NCBI RefSeq assembly: GCF_030553305.1
Contig: NZ_JARRAH010000001.1
Coordinates: 1,426,001 to 1,490,000 of the forward strand
Origin: Halomarina ordinaria
GTDB taxonomy: Archaea > Halobacteriota > Halobacteria > Halobacteriales > Haloarculaceae
Direction of reading: 5' to 3'
Length of the DNA: 64,000 bases
The notes below the pieces were generated by a model, which saw only the letters and a list, made by a program, of their open reading frames with translations, ran no database searches and was not told the DNA's origin. Below are positions 26,446 to 43,028 of this stretch, in pieces (position 1 is the stretch's first letter; each line of letters starts with the position of its first letter). A program made the translations under genes and the position numbers.

Positions 26446-27480
26446 GTGTCGGCTCGGGAGTTCACGTTCGAACTCCGGGTCTGCCAGTGGGCCGAGCGCA
26501 ACTGGCCCCCCGGGGACGACCCCGGAGCGGGCACCACCAGCCTCGTCGCCCGGCAACTCGGCACCCGGGGGCGTCGCTGGGACACGCTCGTCCTTGAGTG
26601 CGACCGCGACGCCCTCGCCGCCAGAGGCGTCTTCGGTCCCGAGCGCCTGAGCAGCGACCTCCTGCACGTCGTCCGTCACGCGCCCCGCGAGTGGGCGTAC
26701 TACCGCGAGGCGCTCCCCGACCCCGGTTACCCCTGGCGCTACGTCCGCGAGGCGGTCCACGAGGCCGACAGTCGGGGTATCGTCGAGACGCGCCGGCGCG
26801 GCGGGCGCATCGAGTGTCGCCGCAGGTGGTTCTACCCCGACTGGTGCGAGCGCATCGTCGCCATCGAGAACAAACCCGACCTGGACGCCAGCGCCGCGCG
26901 GGCGCTCGCCGACCAGCTGGAGCGGGACGTGGCGCTCGGCCTGGCCGACGAGGTGTGGGTGGCGACGCGCGCGACCGGCGAAGGGGTGGAACCGGCGCTG
27001 CTCGAACGCCTCCCGGTCGAGGCGGGTATCCTCACCGTCGGTGAGGAGGGCGTCTCGGTAGCGTGGCACCCCCGTACCCTCGCCGTCTCGGAACCGGGGA
27101 CGCGCATCCTCGACCGGCCGTCCGGGGGGCCGGGCGACCGCTCGGCCGCCCGCTTCGAGTACGTCGACCCGGCGTGGAAGCGCGCGAAGCGCCGCGAGAT
27201 AGCCGAGCGCGCCTACGAGCGCGGGTGGCGCTCGTACGTCGATACCATGCGTCCGGACTGTCGGTACTTCGAGTTGCGCCGCGACGGGGGGGACGTCCTC
27301 CCGTGGTGCGCGGCGAAGGGGCGCAGTCAGACCGCCCGGGAGTGTTCGGGGCGGTGTCCCGAGTTCGAACCCGAACCGCCCGCCTGGCGGACCCGCGGGT
27401 GGCCGATAACGGGCGGCCCGGGGAAGGGGTTCAGACGCCTGCTGGACCGCCAGCGCGCGCGCGAGCGGCGCGTCGACTAG
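26446..27480 (+). CDS. DUF5787-like haloarchaeal protein with PD-(D/E)XK-like core and four-cysteine tail
   Basis: A 344-residue protein of unestablished function. The segment WFYPDWCERIVAIENKPDLD (residues 128-147) resembles the PD...(D/E)xK core of restriction-endonuclease-fold nucleases, with Asp132, Glu141 and Lys143 as the candidate catalytic triad, followed by a helix and the strand DEVWVATR. The C-terminal part carries Cys272, Cys288, Cys300 and Cys304 (C-x15-C-x11-C-x3-C), which could hold zinc or an iron-sulfur cluster. The GTG start follows the Nudix stop by two bases. Convergent with the DUF5797-like gene, with no bases between stop codons. Confidence 0.65.
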   Translation: MSAREFTFELRVCQWAERNWPPGDDPGAGTTSLVARQLGTRGRRWDTLVLECDRDALAARGVFGPERLSSDLLHVVRHAPREWAYYREALPDPGYPWRYVREAVHEADSRGIVETRRRGGRIECRRRWFYPDWCERIVAIENKPDLDASAARALADQLERDVALGLADEVWVATRATGEGVEPALLERLPVEAGILTVGEEGVSVAWHPRTLAVSEPGTRILDRPSGGPGDRSAARFEYVDPAWKRAKRREIAERAYERGWRSYVDTMRPDCRYFELRRDGGDVLPWCAAKGRSQTARECSGRCPEFEPEPPAWRTRGWPITGGPGKGFRRLLDRQRARERRVD

Positions 27481-27960: not shown

Positions 27961-28267
27961 TGCGCGACCGTACGGACAGGGGGTACATCGTCGTTGCGAC
28001 TTTCGGACACTCGGCACGGAGGGGGAACGAGGTCGGACGCGTCCGACGAAGGCGGATGCGACCGGCGCACCGAATCGGGCGTGGCCGCCCCGCCGAAAGC
28101 CATCGGTCGATTGCACGTCTCGGGAGTCGTTCCGTGCTACGAACTGGACCGCGAGCGACCGGCGGGAGCGAGCGGACCGACGAACCCCCGAAGGGGGTGA
28201 GGAGGGTTTTCGTCCAGGTTTTGCCAGGGAGCGGCCGGAGGCCGCTCCCGCAGCAACACGTGGGGGT
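27961..28267. other. 307-base intergenic region
   Basis: Lies between two minus-strand genes. The right part (28166-28267) is the composite palindromic element described separately. The rest (27961-28165) contains no convincing reading frame or RNA gene; the promoter of the DUF5797-like gene should lie just to the right of 27960, but no clear TATA box was found. Confidence 0.5.
28166..28267 (-). repeat. Composite palindromic 3' element, copy A
   Basis: Read on the minus strand it follows the geranylgeranyl reductase stop. It consists of CCACGTGTTGC, then a perfect 10-bp hairpin (28227-28236 with 28240-28249, loop of three), then the constant segment AAAACCTGGACGAAAA, then a 6-bp hairpin (ACCCCC/GGGGGT at 28184-28189 and 28193-28198), then GTCGGTCCGCTCGCTC (28166-28181). 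The outer arms pair with each other imperfectly. The constant parts recur at 33482-33597 and, without the last segment, at 42059-42158, while the hairpins differ completely. Confidence 0.75.
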
Positions 28268-29683
28268 TCAGTACTTCGCCTCGGCGTCGATGGTCGCGTA
28301 GATGTCGTCCATGATGCGGTCGCGCTTGACCCGCCAGAGAGGGAAGCCCTCGGGGCTGTCTGGGTAGCGCTCGTAGTGGCGCAGGAGGCGGTCGGCGAGG
28401 CGCTTCGTCCGGTAGAGGTCGACGAGGGTGTCCCAGTGGCCGCGGGACTTCCAGAGCGTCCGGACGGCGAGGCCGGGACCGACGCCGGCGGTGCCGGAGT
28501 AGAGCGCCTCGGAGAGTTCCTCGCCCGGGAGCGCCGCGAGCAGGCCCATCAGGTCGTCGAGGTCGTACGCCGTCGAGAAGATGTTGTAGACGTCGAGGGC
28601 GGCGTAGCGCCCGCCGTAGTGGTCCATGACGCGGCTGTTGTACCGCCAGAGCGTCTCCTCGCTCGGGTCGCCGGTCTCGAGCGCCTCGATGACCTGCTCG
28701 CCGGCGTACTTCCCGGCGTAGGCGGCCCCCGCGATGCCCCCGCCGGTGGTGGGGTTGACGTGGGCGGCGGCGTCACCGACGGCGACGAACCCCGGCGCGA
28801 CCGCCGAGTCGTACGTGCGACGGGTGGGCAGCGCCGCCCCGAGTTTGTCGAGGACGCGCGCGTTCTCGAACTCCGGGCGGTTCTGCAGGTCCTCGCGGAG
28901 GTCCTGGACCAGTTTCATCGGCTGTTCGTTCATCTGGAAGCCGAGGCCGACGTTGATCTCCGTGGGCGTCCGCGGGAAGTACCAGAGGTAGCCGGCGGCG
29001 CGTTTCGTGGGCTTGAACACGAGGGCGTCGTGCCACTCGACGGGCTCGTCGACCTCGACGATTTCGCGGTAGGCCGAGGCGAACTGCGAGTAGCGGACGT
29101 TCGTGTCGAACGTCGCGTGGCCGAAGTCGGCCTTGTCCTGGAGGAGCGAGAGCGCGCCCGCCCCGTCGACGACGACGTCGCCCTCGTAGGTGACGGGGTC
29201 GCCCTTCCGGATGGCGGAGACGCCGGTCACCCGGCCGTCGCCGCGCTGGTGGACGTCCTTCACGACCGTGTCGTAGTGGAACTCGACGCCGGTACGCTCG
29301 GCACCCTCGATGATGCGTCGCCCGTACTCGTAGCGGTCGATGACGGCGAGTTCGCCGGGGACGGGGATGTCGAGGACGGCGTTCTCGGCCGGTATCTCGA
29401 AGCGCCCGTGGTCGACCACCGTGTTGGTGAACGCCGACTCTATCTGCGACTTCGGGATGACGTCGGGGAAGTTCGCCGCCCCCTTGAGCGCGTCGCCGCA
29501 GGCGATGTGGCCGGCCTCCTCCGCGGTCTTGCGTTCGAGGACGACGACGTCGTACCCGGCCCTGGCGACGGTCGCCGCGGCGTAGCACCCCCCGGTCCCC
29601 GCGCCGACGACGACGACGTCGTGCGTCCGCGTCCGACCGCCGGACGCACCCGACGCGTCGTCGTCGCGCTCGTGTGTGCTCAT
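28268..29683 (-). CDS. Geranylgeranyl reductase family flavoprotein
   Basis: FAD-dependent reductase, 471 residues, predicted to saturate isoprenoid chains of archaeal membrane lipids or of menaquinone. It has an N-terminal dinucleotide fold VVVGAGTGGCYAAATVARAG (about residues 24-43), the substrate-site block GHIACGDALKG near 58-68, the family motif GYLWYFP near 232-238, and the FAD motif VAVGDAAAHVNPTTGGGI near 310. Haloarchaea carry several paralogues, one more being at 38537. A TATA-like GGTTTTCAC about 26 bases upstream indicates a leaderless transcript. A composite palindromic element directly follows its stop. Confidence 0.87.
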   Translation of the reverse strand: MSTHERDDDASGASGGRTRTHDVVVVGAGTGGCYAAATVARAGYDVVVLERKTAEEAGHIACGDALKGAANFPDVIPKSQIESAFTNTVVDHGRFEIPAENAVLDIPVPGELAVIDRYEYGRRIIEGAERTGVEFHYDTVVKDVHQRGDGRVTGVSAIRKGDPVTYEGDVVVDGAGALSLLQDKADFGHATFDTNVRYSQFASAYREIVEVDEPVEWHDALVFKPTKRAAGYLWYFPRTPTEINVGLGFQMNEQPMKLVQDLREDLQNRPEFENARVLDKLGAALPTRRTYDSAVAPGFVAVGDAAAHVNPTTGGGIAGAAYAGKYAGEQVIEALETGDPSEETLWRYNSRVMDHYGGRYAALDVYNIFSTAYDLDDLMGLLAALPGEELSEALYSGTAGVGPGLAVRTLWKSRGHWDTLVDLYRTKRLADRLLRHYERYPDSPEGFPLWRVKRDRIMDDIYATIDAEAKY

Positions 29684-32515: not shown

Positions 32516-33481
32516 ATGGCAGACTTCCCGGAGTACCTCGACGTGGACTACGCGGACGGCGAGGGCGAGTCCCCCGAGGACTACCCCGAACTGGAAGACA
32601 AGATAGAGAAGGCCATCGAGGTCACGAAGGTCGGCCTCGAGGAGTACGAGAACCCCGCCATCATGTGGACCGGTGGGAAGGACTCGACGCTCACGCTCTA
32701 CTTCGTGAAGGAGGTCGCGGAGCAGTACGACATCGAACTGCCGCCGACCATCTTCATCGACCACTTCCAGCACTTCGACGAACTCATCGACTTCGTCGAG
32801 CACTGGGCCGACGAGTGGGACCTGGAGGTCGTCTTCGCGCGCAACGAGGACGTCGGCGAGTACGTCGACGAGAACGGCCTCACCCCGGGCGACGACATCC
32901 CCGTCGACGAACTCAACGACCAGAACCAGCACCACGTGCGGAACATGCTCGAGTACGACGAGGAGACGTTCCCGTTCCTGCTCGACACCTACGTGGGGAA
33001 CCACCTCCTCAAGACCGTCGCGCTGAACAACGCGCTCGAGGAGTACGACGTCGACGGCATCTTCTCGGGCATCCGCTGGGACGAGCAGGACGCCCGCGCC
33101 GAAGAGACGTTCTTCAGCCCGCGTCACGACCCCGAGATCTACCCGCCCCACGACCGCATCCAGCCCATCCTCCAGTTCGAGGAGCGCGCCGTCTGGGACG
33201 CCTTCTGGAACTTCGTCGTCCCCGAGTCGGTCGAGGACTACCCCGCCGGGTACGTCCCCGAGAGCTACGACGACCTGCCGAACGACCTCAGCCACGAGGA
33301 CATCCCGGTCTCGCCGAAGTACTTCGCCGGCTTCCGTTCGCTGGGCAGCGAGGTCTCGACGGACAAGAGCGCCGAGGAACCCGCCTGGCTGCAGGACCTC
33401 GAAGGCACGACCGAGCGCGCGGGCCGCGCCCAGGACAAGGAGGACCTGATGGCGCGCCTGCGCGACCTCGGTTACATGTAG
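32516..33481 (+). CDS. Cysteine-free CysD/PAPS-reductase-superfamily PP-loop protein, paralogue 1
   Basis: A 321-residue ATP-pyrophosphatase-fold protein. The PP-loop TGGKDST is at residues 52-58, followed by IFIDHFQHFDELIDF, and R187-W-D-E-Q-D-A-R194-A matches the RRDEEKSRA motif of ATP sulfurylase small subunit CysD rather than PAPS reductase. The protein contains no cysteine at all, whereas PAPS reductase needs a catalytic C-terminal cysteine, so an automatic PAPS reductase label would be wrong in function. Probable chemistry is adenylation of an unknown acceptor. A close paralogue lies at 34764. AT-rich TAATAATATCTAA precedes the ATG. Confidence 0.8.
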   Translation: MADFPEYLDVDYADGEGESPEDYPELEDKIEKAIEVTKVGLEEYENPAIMWTGGKDSTLTLYFVKEVAEQYDIELPPTIFIDHFQHFDELIDFVEHWADEWDLEVVFARNEDVGEYVDENGLTPGDDIPVDELNDQNQHHVRNMLEYDEETFPFLLDTYVGNHLLKTVALNNALEEYDVDGIFSGIRWDEQDARAEETFFSPRHDPEIYPPHDRIQPILQFEERAVWDAFWNFVVPESVEDYPAGYVPESYDDLPNDLSHEDIPVSPKYFAGFRSLGSEVSTDKSAEEPAWLQDLEGTTERAGRAQDKEDLMARLRDLGYM

Positions 33482-33597
33482 ACCCACGTTTTACCGCGCT
33501 CGCTCGTTGCACTCGCTCGCTGGTAAAACCTGGACGAAAACCCTCCCTCACCCGTGAGAGCCGCCGGCTCTCACGGGTGAGGTCGGTCCGCTCGCTC
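33482..33597 (+). repeat. Composite palindromic 3' element, copy B
   Basis: Begins one base after the stop of the preceding gene. CCACGTTTTACC (33484-33495) pairs with GGTAAAACCTGG (33522-33533) except at one position, enclosing a G+C-rich loop of 26 bases; ACGAAAACCCTCC follows; then a perfect 16-bp hairpin (33547-33562 with 33566-33581, loop GCC); then GTCGGTCCGCTCGCTC (33582-33597). Constant parts match copy A on the opposite strand, but the internal hairpin sequences are unrelated. Confidence 0.75.
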
Positions 33598-33694
33598 GCG
33601 TGCGCACGCGGCACGCTCGCTCACGGGACAGAAAGGAGGGACGGCCTTCTCGAAACACGGAACGTCCGTCAGCGATAGCGCCGACCTCCGCCAA

Positions 33695-34642
33695 CTACGG
33701 CGAGTCGAACGCGTCGCGCAGGTCGTCCGCGATGTGCGCGACCGCCTCGTGGGCGCGGTCGATACCGTCGGCGCCGAGGTTCGTCGCGAAGCCGTGAATC
33801 ATGTCCTCGTAGTTCTCGTAGCGGACCGCGACGCCGTCGGCGACCAGTCGCTCGGCGTACGCCTTCCCGCCGTCACGTAACGGGTCGAACCCCGCCGTGA
33901 CGACCGTCGCGGGAGCCACCCCGCCGAGGTCCCCCGCGTTGATGGGGTCGGCGTAGGGGTTGCGCAGGTGGACGTCGCTGCCGTAGTAGCACTCGCGGAA
34001 CCACTCGAGGTCCTCCTCGTGGAGGACGATACCCGTGTGCGCCTGCGCCGACGGGTGGTCCTCGTCGAGGCCGACGCCGGGGTAGACGAGCACCTGATAG
34101 TCGACGGCGGGGCCGTCACGCTCCGCGGCCATCAGCGAGACGACGGCCGCGAGCGCGCCGCCCGCGCTGTCGCCGACGACCGCCAACTGGCCGGTCGAGT
34201 CGAGGGCGCCGGGGTGCGCGGCGGCCCACTCGGTCGCCGCGTAGGCGTCCTCGACGGCCGCCGGGAAGGGGTGCTCGGGCGCGAGGCGGTAGTCGACCGC
34301 CACGACGACGCAGCCGCTCTCGCGAACGAGGTGTCGACAGAGCAGGTCGTGGCTCTCGAGGCCACCGAAGACGAACCCGCCGCCGTGGAAGAAGACGACC
34401 GTCGGAAACGGTCCCGTCCCGTCGGGGCGGTAGATCCGCACCGGGAGGGACCCCGCGGGACCGGGAACCGTCCGGTCCTCTGTCGCCCCGACGGCCGGGG
34501 GGTTCCGGTTCTGAAACCAGTCGGTCACGCGCATCAGCAGTCGGAGACGTCGGACGCCGTGCTTTCGGAGGGGGTACAACCGGAGCCGTTCCTGTCGGTC
34601 GAGGACGGCTCTCGCCTGCGGGTGAATCTCGGGGGCTTCCAC
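33695..34642 (-). CDS. Hormone-sensitive-lipase family esterase
   Basis: A 315-residue alpha/beta hydrolase. Oxyanion motif HGGG at residues 86-89, nucleophile Ser159 in GDSAGG, acid in GFDPLRDGG and catalytic His in MIHGFA near 290 place it in the HSL/bacterial family IV esterases. The start is the GTG at 34642: a TATA box (GTTTATATCTC on the minus strand, near 34662-34672) lies about 26 bases upstream, so the transcript would be leaderless and the upstream open frame untranslated. It sits between the two PP-loop paralogues, convergent with the first. Confidence 0.87.
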   Translation of the reverse strand: MEAPEIHPQARAVLDRQERLRLYPLRKHGVRRLRLLMRVTDWFQNRNPPAVGATEDRTVPGPAGSLPVRIYRPDGTGPFPTVVFFHGGGFVFGGLESHDLLCRHLVRESGCVVVAVDYRLAPEHPFPAAVEDAYAATEWAAAHPGALDSTGQLAVVGDSAGGALAAVVSLMAAERDGPAVDYQVLVYPGVGLDEDHPSAQAHTGIVLHEEDLEWFRECYYGSDVHLRNPYADPINAGDLGGVAPATVVTAGFDPLRDGGKAYAERLVADGVAVRYENYEDMIHGFATNLGADGIDRAHEAVAHIADDLRDAFDSP

Positions 34643-34661
34643 GCAGGACTGTTCCGTTCGT

Positions 34662-34672
34662 CGAGATATAAA
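34662..34672 (-). promoter_or_regulatory. TATA box of the esterase gene
   Basis: On the minus strand GTTTATATCTC, centred about 26 bases upstream of the GTG at 34642. The spacing sets the start codon of the esterase and indicates a leaderless mRNA. The box also contains a TATA sequence on the plus strand that could act toward 34764. Confidence 0.55.
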
Positions 34673-34763
34673 CCCCCCACGGTCGGCGAGCGACGAGGGT
34701 TTGTGCCGCGTGTTCACACCTCCGCCGCAAGGTAGATAGCCGCGAACGGTGATATCGTCCTCG

Positions 34764-35714
34764 ATGACCACCTTCCCCGACTACCTCTCGCTCGACTACG
34801 ACGACGGCCGCGAGCAGACCGCGGCCGATTACCCCACGCTGGAGGACAAACTCGGCAAGGCCGTCGAGGTCACCCGCACGGCCCTGGAGCAGTATCGCCG
34901 GCCTGCAGTGATGTGGACCGGCGGGAAGGACTCGACGCTCGTCCTCTACGTCGTCCTGCAGGCCGCAGAGGAGTACGGGTTCGACCTCCCACCGGTCGTC
35001 TTCATCGACCACTACCAGCACTTCGACGACGTCGTCGCGTTCGTCGAACGCTGGGCAGACGAGTGGGACCTGGACCTCGTCGTCGCGCGCAACGACGACC
35101 CCGCGTTCTCCGAGCACACGCCCGGCGAGGACGTGCCGGTCGAGGTCCTCACGGAGGAGAACCGCCGGGAACTCGCCCGCGCGGACCACGACGGCGAGAC
35201 GTTCCGCTTCGAGGCCGACAGCCTCGGCGGCAACCACCTCCTCAAGACCGTCGCGCTCAACCACGTCGTCGAGGAACACGGCTTCGACGGCATCTTCTCG
35301 GGCGTCCGGTGGGACGAACAGGACGCCCGTGCCGACGAGACGTTCTTCAGCCCGCGCCACGACTCGGAGAAGTACCCGCCGCACGACCGCGTCCACTCCA
35401 TCCTCCAGTTCGACGAACGGGCGGTCTGGGACGCCTTCTGGAGGTTCATCGTCCCCGACACCGTCGAGGGCTGGCCCGAGGGACACGTCCCCCAGGACTA
35501 CGACGACATGCCCGAGGGGTTCACCGCCGAGGACATCCCCGTCTCCCCGAAGTACTTCGAGGGCTTCCGCTCGCTCGGGACCGAGAAGGGCTCCGCGAAG
35601 TCGGCCGACGCCCCGGCGTGGCTCCAGGACCTCGAAGGCACCACCGAACGCGAGGGGCGCGCACAGGACAAGGAGGACCTGATGGCGCGCCTGCGTGACC
35701 TCGGTTACATGTAG
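34764..35714 (+). CDS. Cysteine-free CysD/PAPS-reductase-superfamily PP-loop protein, paralogue 2
   Basis: A 316-residue paralogue of the product of the gene at 32516. It shares the PP-loop WTGGKDST, the FIDHYQHFDD strand, GNHLLKTVALN, FSGVRWDEQDARADETFFSPRHD and the terminal LEGTTEREGRAQDKEDLMARLRDLGYM almost unchanged, while the region around residues 105-150 differs. It too lacks any cysteine. The ATG at 34764 aligns with the paralogue's start and is preferred over the upstream GTG at 34749. The duplicated pair with an esterase between them, each followed by a palindromic element, suggests a segmental duplication followed by divergence. Confidence 0.8.
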   Translation: MTTFPDYLSLDYDDGREQTAADYPTLEDKLGKAVEVTRTALEQYRRPAVMWTGGKDSTLVLYVVLQAAEEYGFDLPPVVFIDHYQHFDDVVAFVERWADEWDLDLVVARNDDPAFSEHTPGEDVPVEVLTEENRRELARADHDGETFRFEADSLGGNHLLKTVALNHVVEEHGFDGIFSGVRWDEQDARADETFFSPRHDSEKYPPHDRVHSILQFDERAVWDAFWRFIVPDTVEGWPEGHVPQDYDDMPEGFTAEDIPVSPKYFEGFRSLGTEKGSAKSADAPAWLQDLEGTTEREGRAQDKEDLMARLRDLGYM

Positions 35715-35768
35715 CGACCTTTTATCCACGAATGGGGCGGCTTCGCCGCCCCACAGGGTAAAAGATCG
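35715..35768 (+). repeat. Palindromic 3' element, divergent copy D
   Basis: Starts at the base after the stop codon. CGACCTTTTATCC (35715-35727) pairs with GGGTAAAAGATCG (35756-35768), 11 of 13 positions plus wobble, and encloses a perfect 9-bp hairpin TGGGGCGGC/GCCGCCCCA (35733-35741 and 35745-35753, loop TTC). The plan is the same as in copies A-C (AT-containing outer arms, unrelated inner hairpin), but the arm sequence differs. It is followed by a stretch rich in GCTCGCT motifs. Confidence 0.65.
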
Positions 35769-35906
35769 ACCAAAAGCATTCGTCGCTCACTCCGACGCTT
35801 CGCGCCGTCGCTCGCTCCTCAGCCCGCTCGTTCGCTTCGCTCACTCGCGGTACAGGACAGTAGCCCGCAACGCACGTTCATCACCTGCCGAGACGTATCG
35901 GCGTGC

Positions 35907-42058: not shown

Positions 42059-42158
42059 CCGAGTTCGAGCGCGGCGCGCTCGAACTCGGCCCTTTTTCGT
42101 CCAGGTTTTTGCAAGCGGGGGTCGCGCTTCGCGCCCCCCCCCGCAGTAAAAACGTGGG
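42059..42158 (-). repeat. Composite palindromic 3' element, copy C
   Basis: Read on the minus strand it follows the korB stop by 3 bases: CCACGTTTTTACTGC (42157-42143), a G/C-rich hairpin of irregular arms, GCAAAAACCTGG (42112-42101), ACGAAAAAGG, then a perfect 14-bp hairpin (42059-42072 with 42076-42089, loop of three). Same constant segments as copies A and B but with five-base A/T runs. On the plus strand it supplies two T5 tracts facing the convergent hydrolase gene, suitable for archaeal termination. Confidence 0.75.
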
Positions 42159-42161
42159 TGG

Positions 42162-43028
42162 CTAGTAGAACTCCCGCACCAGGTCCATCGCGTCGTCGGG
42201 CGCGCCCGAGGGGATGTCCGAGAGGTCCTCGGTCAGGCCCATGCGCTCGTTGTAGGGCACCGACTCGTCGTCGCGGTAGATGACGCCCTGGTACTCCTTC
42301 TCGGAGTCGAGGATGACCTCGGTGGCCTGGTCGTAGTCCGTCTCGTCGTAGTCCTCGTCCTCACCGAGGTCCACGAGCGAGTCGCGGAAGTAGTCGTAGG
42401 TGTCGACGTCGTTGAACGTGACACACGGCGAGTAGACGTTGACGAAGCCGAAGCCGGGGTGTTCGATGGCCTCCTGGACGATCTGTGCGTGGCGCTGGGC
42501 GTCCGAGGAGAACGACTGGGCGATGAACGACCCGCCGGCGGCGAGCGCCAGCGCGAGCGGGTTGACCGGCGACTGGTGGGTGCCGTCGGGACTCGTGGAG
42601 GTCTCGAAGTCCTCGCGGCTGGTGGGCGAGAACTGCCCCTTCGTCAGCCCGTAGATGCGGTTGTCCATGACGACGTACGTCATGTCCATGTTGCGCCGGA
42701 CGGCGTGGACGAAGTGGCCGGCCCCGATGGAGTAGCCGTCGCCGTCGCCGCCGGCGACCATCACTTCGAGGTTGGGGTTGGCCGCCTTCACGCCGATGCC
42801 GACGGGGAGGGCGCGACCGTGGACGCCGTGCAGCGCGTAGCTGTGCATGTACGTCCCGATCTTGCCCGAACAGCCGATACCCGCGACGACGAACGTGTTG
42901 TCGGGGTCGTTGCCCGTGTTGGCGAGGGCTTTCATCATGCCGTTCATCGTCCCGAAGTCGCCGCAGCCGGGACACCACGTGGGTTGCTTGTCGGATTTGA
43001 AGTCTGTGAACCTGACTTGGGAACTCAT
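42162..43028 (-). CDS. korB: 2-oxoacid:ferredoxin oxidoreductase beta subunit (KorB)
   Basis: Thiamine-diphosphate-binding subunit, 288 residues, of the ferredoxin-dependent 2-oxoacid (probably 2-oxoglutarate) dehydrogenase used in the haloarchaeal TCA cycle. The N-terminal WCPGCGDFG (Cys19, Cys22) provides cluster ligands, and the ThDP site GDGDGYSIGAGH...VVMDNRIYGLTKGQFSPTS near residues 92-130 is typical. It overlaps the korA gene by four bases (ATGA) and is the second gene of the operon. A palindromic element follows the stop. Confidence 0.92.
   Translation of the reverse strand: MSSQVRFTDFKSDKQPTWCPGCGDFGTMNGMMKALANTGNDPDNTFVVAGIGCSGKIGTYMHSYALHGVHGRALPVGIGVKAANPNLEVMVAGGDGDGYSIGAGHFVHAVRRNMDMTYVVMDNRIYGLTKGQFSPTSREDFETSTSPDGTHQSPVNPLALALAAGGSFIAQSFSSDAQRHAQIVQEAIEHPGFGFVNVYSPCVTFNDVDTYDYFRDSLVDLGEDEDYDETDYDQATEVILDSEKEYQGVIYRDDESVPYNERMGLTEDLSDIPSGAPDDAMDLVREFY

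Follow-up and report, generated by a model that had tools for sequence, protein, structure and literature searches.

T-stretches end transcripts in haloarchaea, and in Haloferax volcanii a T5C tract stopped 95% of transcripts (PMC7237163). The composite palindromes described here likewise place a T tract soon past the gene end, as do the H. volcanii terminators, in which the tract is often followed by C and sometimes accompanied by hairpins (PMC7237163). Unlike the elements here, however, archaeal T-stretch terminators have not been described with a palindromic framework that puts tracts on both strands, with family-wide covariation or with an insertion history. Intrinsic terminators of Bacillus cereus also show compensatory stem change, but these are resident sites with G–U as the main intermediate (PMC5381666). 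Among mobile or repetitive DNA, the bacterial REP, REPIN and BIME repeats, which are associated with RAYT transposases, are similarly short interspersed palindromes near gene ends that sometimes supply stop codons; they are marked by a conserved tag and accompanied by a Y1/RAYT enzyme, whereas the present elements have arms that change freely and long gene-end duplications and show no Y1 dependence. Miniature inverted-repeat transposable elements (MITEs), haloarchaeal ones included, are likewise small, non-coding, inserted and present in many copies per genome, but their terminal repeats are fixed and their target duplications are short and uniform in length. In the present family, no fixed terminal letters were found (the arms change freely and the right end is variable), the repeats range from 20 to 160 nt and no autonomous version was seen. 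Integron attC sites also keep structure while their sequence varies and also lie directly after stop codons. Their conserved ends are RYYYAAC/GTTRRRY; by inspection, the arms here (CCA/TGG, CGA/TCG, GCA/TGC, GTA/TAC and others) lack these letters, and the elements have neither cassette genes nor a link to an integrase.

The elements are, in broad kind, small palindromic interspersed repeats with unusual target duplications and an unusual pairwise mode of evolution. Searches of the literature by sequence strings and topics, of partial coverage and thus capable of missing a description, returned no account of the family, and no Rfam 15 model matched any element between positions 27000 and 43000 of the window (the whole 64,000-nt stretch of DNA that was analysed), even at E values up to 5. 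We consider it probable that these are haloarchaeal composite palindromes that insert at gene 3′ ends and act there as two-way T-stretch terminators.

Copies in the window and across the order

The original prediction was made on three copies (A, B and C), each said to follow a gene in sense orientation. The copies, their coordinates and their hairpins proved real—all three lie directly 3′ of stop codons, with copy B beginning 3 nt after its TAG—whereas the description of the arms as near-constant and of the position as always behind a gene in sense did not hold across the family. A further copy, D, had been missed. The features are as follows.

28166..28267, minus strand: copy A, after the gene at 28268-29683; T-tract degenerate (TGTT)
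28268-29683: gene upstream of copy A; product FAD-dependent oxidoreductase/geranylgeranyl-reductase-like
33479..33481, plus strand: TAG stop codon of the gene preceding copy B (gene 32516-33481, PAPS-reductase-domain protein, Pfam PF01507)
33484..33492, plus strand: left arm of copy B, CCA-CG, with the T4 tract; this forward-strand T-stretch lies 7 nt past the stop
33493..33524, plus strand: hairpin 1 of copy B, the variable tip of a long stem; fold z −2.4 with the arms
33525..33540, plus strand: core of copy B, AAAA-CC-TGG-ACG-AAAA (A-tract, partner arm TGG, second A-tract)
33546..33582, plus strand: hairpin 2 of copy B, a perfect 17-bp stem with a 3-nt loop; fold z −5.9
33583..33620, plus strand: right tail of copy B with GTCCGCTCGCTC, common to many own-genome copies of the same subtype
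33695..34771, minus strand: convergent neighbour of copy B, an alpha/beta hydrolase, whose stop faces the element
35715..35790, plus strand: copy D, CGA-CC-T4-hairpin-A4-GA-TCG-ACC-A4; fold z −5.1
42059..42158, minus strand: copy C, after the gene at 42162-43028; tracts T5/A5
42162-43028: gene upstream of copy C; product pyruvate:ferredoxin oxidoreductase beta-like

The two arms, not recognized as partners in the original description, form one long stem in which CCA.GTTTTACC pairs with GGTAAAAC.TGG around a small mismatch bubble and hairpin 1 is the tip; the two A-tracts in the core of copy B are two T-tracts on the minus strand. Hairpin 1 folds with z −3.9 in copy A and −3.6 in copy C. Copies A, B and C share a 16-mer, AAAACCTGGACGAAAA, without any mismatch, compared with 0.07 matches at up to 3 mismatches in the shuffled window, and the tail reported as common to copies A and B is indeed the same in the two. 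Copy D lies directly 3′ of the stop of a PAPS-reductase paralogue (34749-35714) and, unlike copies A–C, has the arms CGA/TCG. The two paralogous PAPS-reductase-domain genes (32516-33481 and 34749-35714) flank the convergent hydrolase; an element stands at the end of each, and the two elements differ in arms and hairpins.

Genome-wide counts rest on pattern searches. In the own genome (3.61 Mb), the 16-mer is matched 16 times when 2 mismatches are allowed, and the looser pattern T4-hairpin-A4-n-A4 adds others, copy D among them; the genome has about 20 copies. Across 182 catalogued copies, the plan runs from the gene end through a 3-nt arm, two loosely matched bases, T4–6, hairpin 1, A4–6, two bases, the partner arm, three bases and A4–6 to hairpin 2, giving an element of about 60–130 nt. 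At least two subtypes can be told apart by the framework letters around the hairpins: the GCTGCG..CTGGC type, found in the own genome, and the CTTCGTCGGG..CTCCTCGAA type. Of 146 genomes examined in the order, 83 contain the core motif AAAANCTGGACNAAAA (reversed control, 2 matches), the number of copies per genome ranging from 0 to 44, and named hosts of the full element include Haloferax, Halorientalis, Natrinema, Natrialba, Natronococcus, Haloarcula, Halococcus, Haladaptatus, Halogeometricum and Halarchaeum. Copies are also carried by two Halorussus plasmid records (0.4–0.5 Mb). None of 2.9 million viral contigs had the two-arm pattern, and the phages searched contained no copy with both arms; a viral or phage origin gained no support from these records, the few 16-mer matches in GC-rich viral contigs lacking the arm and being attributable to chance.

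Copies start 1–9 nt past a stop codon or the 3′ end of a tRNA, or else abut a repeated end of the convergent gene. Sixty-eight of the 182 start within 25 nt of a CDS stop (50 of these at 1–6 nt) and ten directly after a tRNA; 40 directly follow a repeat of the convergent gene's end, in antisense, 36 are near the start of an antisense gene and 28 lie elsewhere. The claim that the element always follows a gene in sense is therefore not general. Neighbours could be classed for 175 copies (convergent, 64; tandem in sense, 50; tandem in antisense, 42; divergent, 19), with some error in the classes, as genes were called by a custom codon-usage script; 156 of the 175 touch at least one facing gene 3′ end, and 19 lie in divergent gaps. 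The family is thus neither confined to the three copies nor scattered without regard to gene ends, the two outcomes against which the original prediction had been staked; it is widespread near gene ends, with compensatory change that keeps its structure.

Paired change in arms and hairpins

For copy B and for copy C, the corresponding gene end was inspected in about 30 relatives, which gave 22 copies with the plan after the stop. The arms at these orthologous ends comprise CCA/TGG, CGA/TCG, GCA/TGC, GGA/TCC, GAA/TTC, GAC/GTC and GTA/TAC, so that CCA/TGG, previously taken as constant, is merely the commonest of seven variants. The variants still pair: arm pairing is complete in 18 of the 22 copies, against a mean of 4.6 in permutations (0 of 5,000 reached 18), and in 10 of the 14 that remain when CCA/TGG is excluded (0 of 5,000 permutations). 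In a wider set of 43 general matches without CCA/TGG, 16 were fully paired, compared with 3.8 expected. The T-tract equals the A-tract in length in 19 of the 22 copies. Because the arm letters change in pairs, the proposal that the arms form a constant recognition site is not supported and was dropped; only the T- and A-tracts and their spacing are constant.

Hairpins show the same behaviour. Over all copies, the median fold z was −3.5 for hairpin 1 and −2.2 for hairpin 2, compared with −0.1 for the coding control. In one genome (G102), 15 paralogues of the CTTCGTCGGG..CTCCTCGAA type could be aligned over 46 pairs, 15 of which had changed on both sides (86 such cells); 98.4% of cells were paired, against 86% in shuffles (0 of 500 reached this value) and 37–50% in slid controls. 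At orthologous ends, hairpins are mostly unrelated between genera, and within one genus they can be the same (L049/L406 and L396/L403) or wholly different (the copy B locus in its own genus). The part of the original interpretation that held structure to be kept while sequence changes is strongly supported by the covariation of the paralogues and by the paired arms at orthologous gene ends; with the spread of the family near gene ends it stands, whereas the recognition role given to the arms is not supported.

None of the G102 pairs changed on both sides took a G–U form, G–U being confined to a few other pairs, which hints that the stems are rewritten as DNA palindromes and not only selected as RNA. 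The hint is weak because the G–U share of all hairpin pairs (4–5%) is only slightly below that in 22 tRNAs (6%), a comparison that also weakens G–U rarity as proof of a DNA-level process. At four loci (L033, L036, L362 and L397), hairpin 1 contains extra hairpins with their own linker letters relative to close relatives, and stems there seem to grow by hairpin addition.

Gene-end repeats and empty sites

In the 40 repeat-bearing copies, 20–160 nt from the 3′ end of the gene across the element recur as a direct repeat. The repeat abuts the T-tract side, usually at a distance of 0–7 nt, and often ends at the gene's stop codon, the letters of which may differ between the two repeat copies. Polarity is fixed—in 35 of 38 repeat-bearing copies with callable neighbours, the repeated gene lies beyond hairpin 2, its end directed towards the element. 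Own-genome copies have no clear gene-end repeat.

At three loci, comparison with sister species indicates that the elements insert, because sister species have empty sites with one repeat copy where filled sites carry the element and a 45–128-nt direct repeat. At L378, three sister species (G092, G146 and G148) have a single 55-nt copy, no element and a few nucleotides between the two genes, and two other genomes (G084 and G147) have the element and the repeat; at L394 a single 128-nt copy in G075 corresponds to a filled site in G143, and at L382 a single 45-nt copy in G148 to a filled site in G084. Recombination between the direct repeats could also empty a site by deletion. Even then, the arrangement with flanking repeats must at some time have originated by insertion or duplication, and L378 lacks the second element that tandem duplication would leave.

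This last point bears on the view that the elements are old, vertically inherited, non-mobile terminators whose repeats arose by local tandem duplication of element and gene end. The same gene end is occupied in different families (L013, L032, L049, L373 and L406, copy C with L377 and copy A with L363), which favours this view, and arrays of gene end plus element occur (L115, L126, L172 and L175), those at L115, L172 and L175 being in tandem; G119 shows the order gene–element–repeat–element–gene. Set against these are the filled L378 genomes, with a single element and none beyond the repeat, opposite three sister species without any, and the range of copy number from 0 to 44 within the order; we regard vertical inheritance without movement as unlikely.

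The repeats, which run between the T-tract end of the element and the stop codon of the gene, could also be read as short gene-end cassettes moved through an attC-like recombination site, that is, a folded single strand recognized by its structure. Such a site would fit a framework that has a mismatch bubble and variable tips to its stems and lies directly after stop codons, but arms that change freely and lack the attC letters, the absence of a linked integrase and the nature of the host genes checked (housekeeping genes and tRNAs, not cassettes) leave this explanation with very little probability. Lower still is our estimate for mobilization by a Y1 transposase, as in miniature elements of the REP or IS200/IS605 type. 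These too are short palindromes at gene ends, and GTAG REPs also provide stop codons (PMC3733652); in G084, similarly, the final codon and the stop at L378 seem to be completed by the end of the element. Among 20 copy-rich and 20 copy-poor genomes, however, Y1 transposase (PF01797) was not associated with copies: it was present in 12 of the former and 10 of the latter, and absent from eight copy-rich genomes, the own genome included (G000, G143, G005, G034, G114, G090, G088 and G026). Mobilization of this kind is disfavoured by that distribution, and no mobilizing enzyme was identified. Target duplications are not known from IS200/605 insertions.

Fixed polarity, variable repeat length and a sharp T-tract junction suit copying primed inside the convergent gene. 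Movement may proceed, on this tentative reading, by a copy event of fixed polarity: the T-tract end would join a position within the 3′ region of the convergent gene, and the end of that gene would then be copied a second time, in the manner of template switching when a fork stalls or of target-primed copying; the features fit either. Taken further, the elements might be terminators that spread themselves without a transposase, moving at gene 3′ ends by template switching or primed copying, with the same process rewriting the stems as perfect palindromes. Within a genus, paired changes in arms, tract lengths and hairpins would then arise without loss of the terminator plan. We hold this fuller account to be possible but doubtful.

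Several loci show further rearrangement. In the tandem units at L115, the 86-nt gene-end repeats and the left arm are identical and the hairpins wholly different. At L394 and L399, in two species of one genus, two gene-end alleles seem to occupy swapped places, one's repeat resembling the other's gene, suggesting exchange or independent insertion. Left ends are doubled at L005, L023, L024, L028 and L117 (for example, CCACCTTTTCGCTACCACCTTTTT), as if an older copy had received a newer one at its T-tract end.

Proposed termination on both strands

With T-tracts on both strands placed behind gene ends, we infer that a two-way T-stretch terminator would be the best reading of the element's function. 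The forward T-tract would end the transcript of the upstream gene; for the opposite strand, T4-n8-T4 behind hairpin 2 would end the convergent transcript. An insertion would be harmless or even useful where it landed, since it would end transcripts on both strands. At the two orthologous gene ends, T4–6 starts 4–9 nt past the stop in 20 of the 22 copies. In the window, a tract of T4 or longer occurs within 60 nt of only 5 of 59 gene ends, three of which are copies B, C and D; the tract is broken in copy A. Divergent genes flank about 11% of copies, and a terminator there has no obvious use, although missed small genes inflate this figure.

Strong folding and covariation would also be expected of an RNA 3′-end stabilizer, in which transcribed hairpins shield mRNA ends from 3′ exonucleases, and hairpin 2, being upstream of the T-tract for the convergent gene, would be transcribed from that side. 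The upstream gene, by contrast, meets a T-tract before both hairpins, so that hairpin 1 would be absent from its mRNA if transcription stops at the first tract. Copies also follow tRNAs, whose 3′ ends come from processing, and the pairs changed on both sides include no G–U, which is the commonest intermediate in Bacillus terminators (PMC5381666). Stabilization is, in our judgement, improbable. Of the functions originally proposed, terminator and non-autonomous inserting element both fit, and both may be true; mRNA stabilizer and nucleoid-protein site gained no specific support.

In the GC-rich own genome, T-tracts after genes are rare and how transcripts end is not obvious. If the elements are two-way terminators, the family would supply ready-made stop signals spread by insertion, linking mobile DNA to 3′-end formation. 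Orthologous sites at which structure is kept and letters are free offer a natural experiment on palindrome maintenance, and movement can be tested directly in culturable genera such as Haloferax, Natrinema and Haloarcula, through sister species whose sites are filled in some and empty in others.

A second palindrome family was seen at four tRNA 3′ ends (L048, L179, L181 and L184), with AGGGAACG, a variable hairpin and GAGTGACCG in a spacer; the order there is tRNA, palindrome spacer, copy of the tRNA 3′ end and terminator-like element, and the outer arms of the palindrome resemble the tRNA T-arm.
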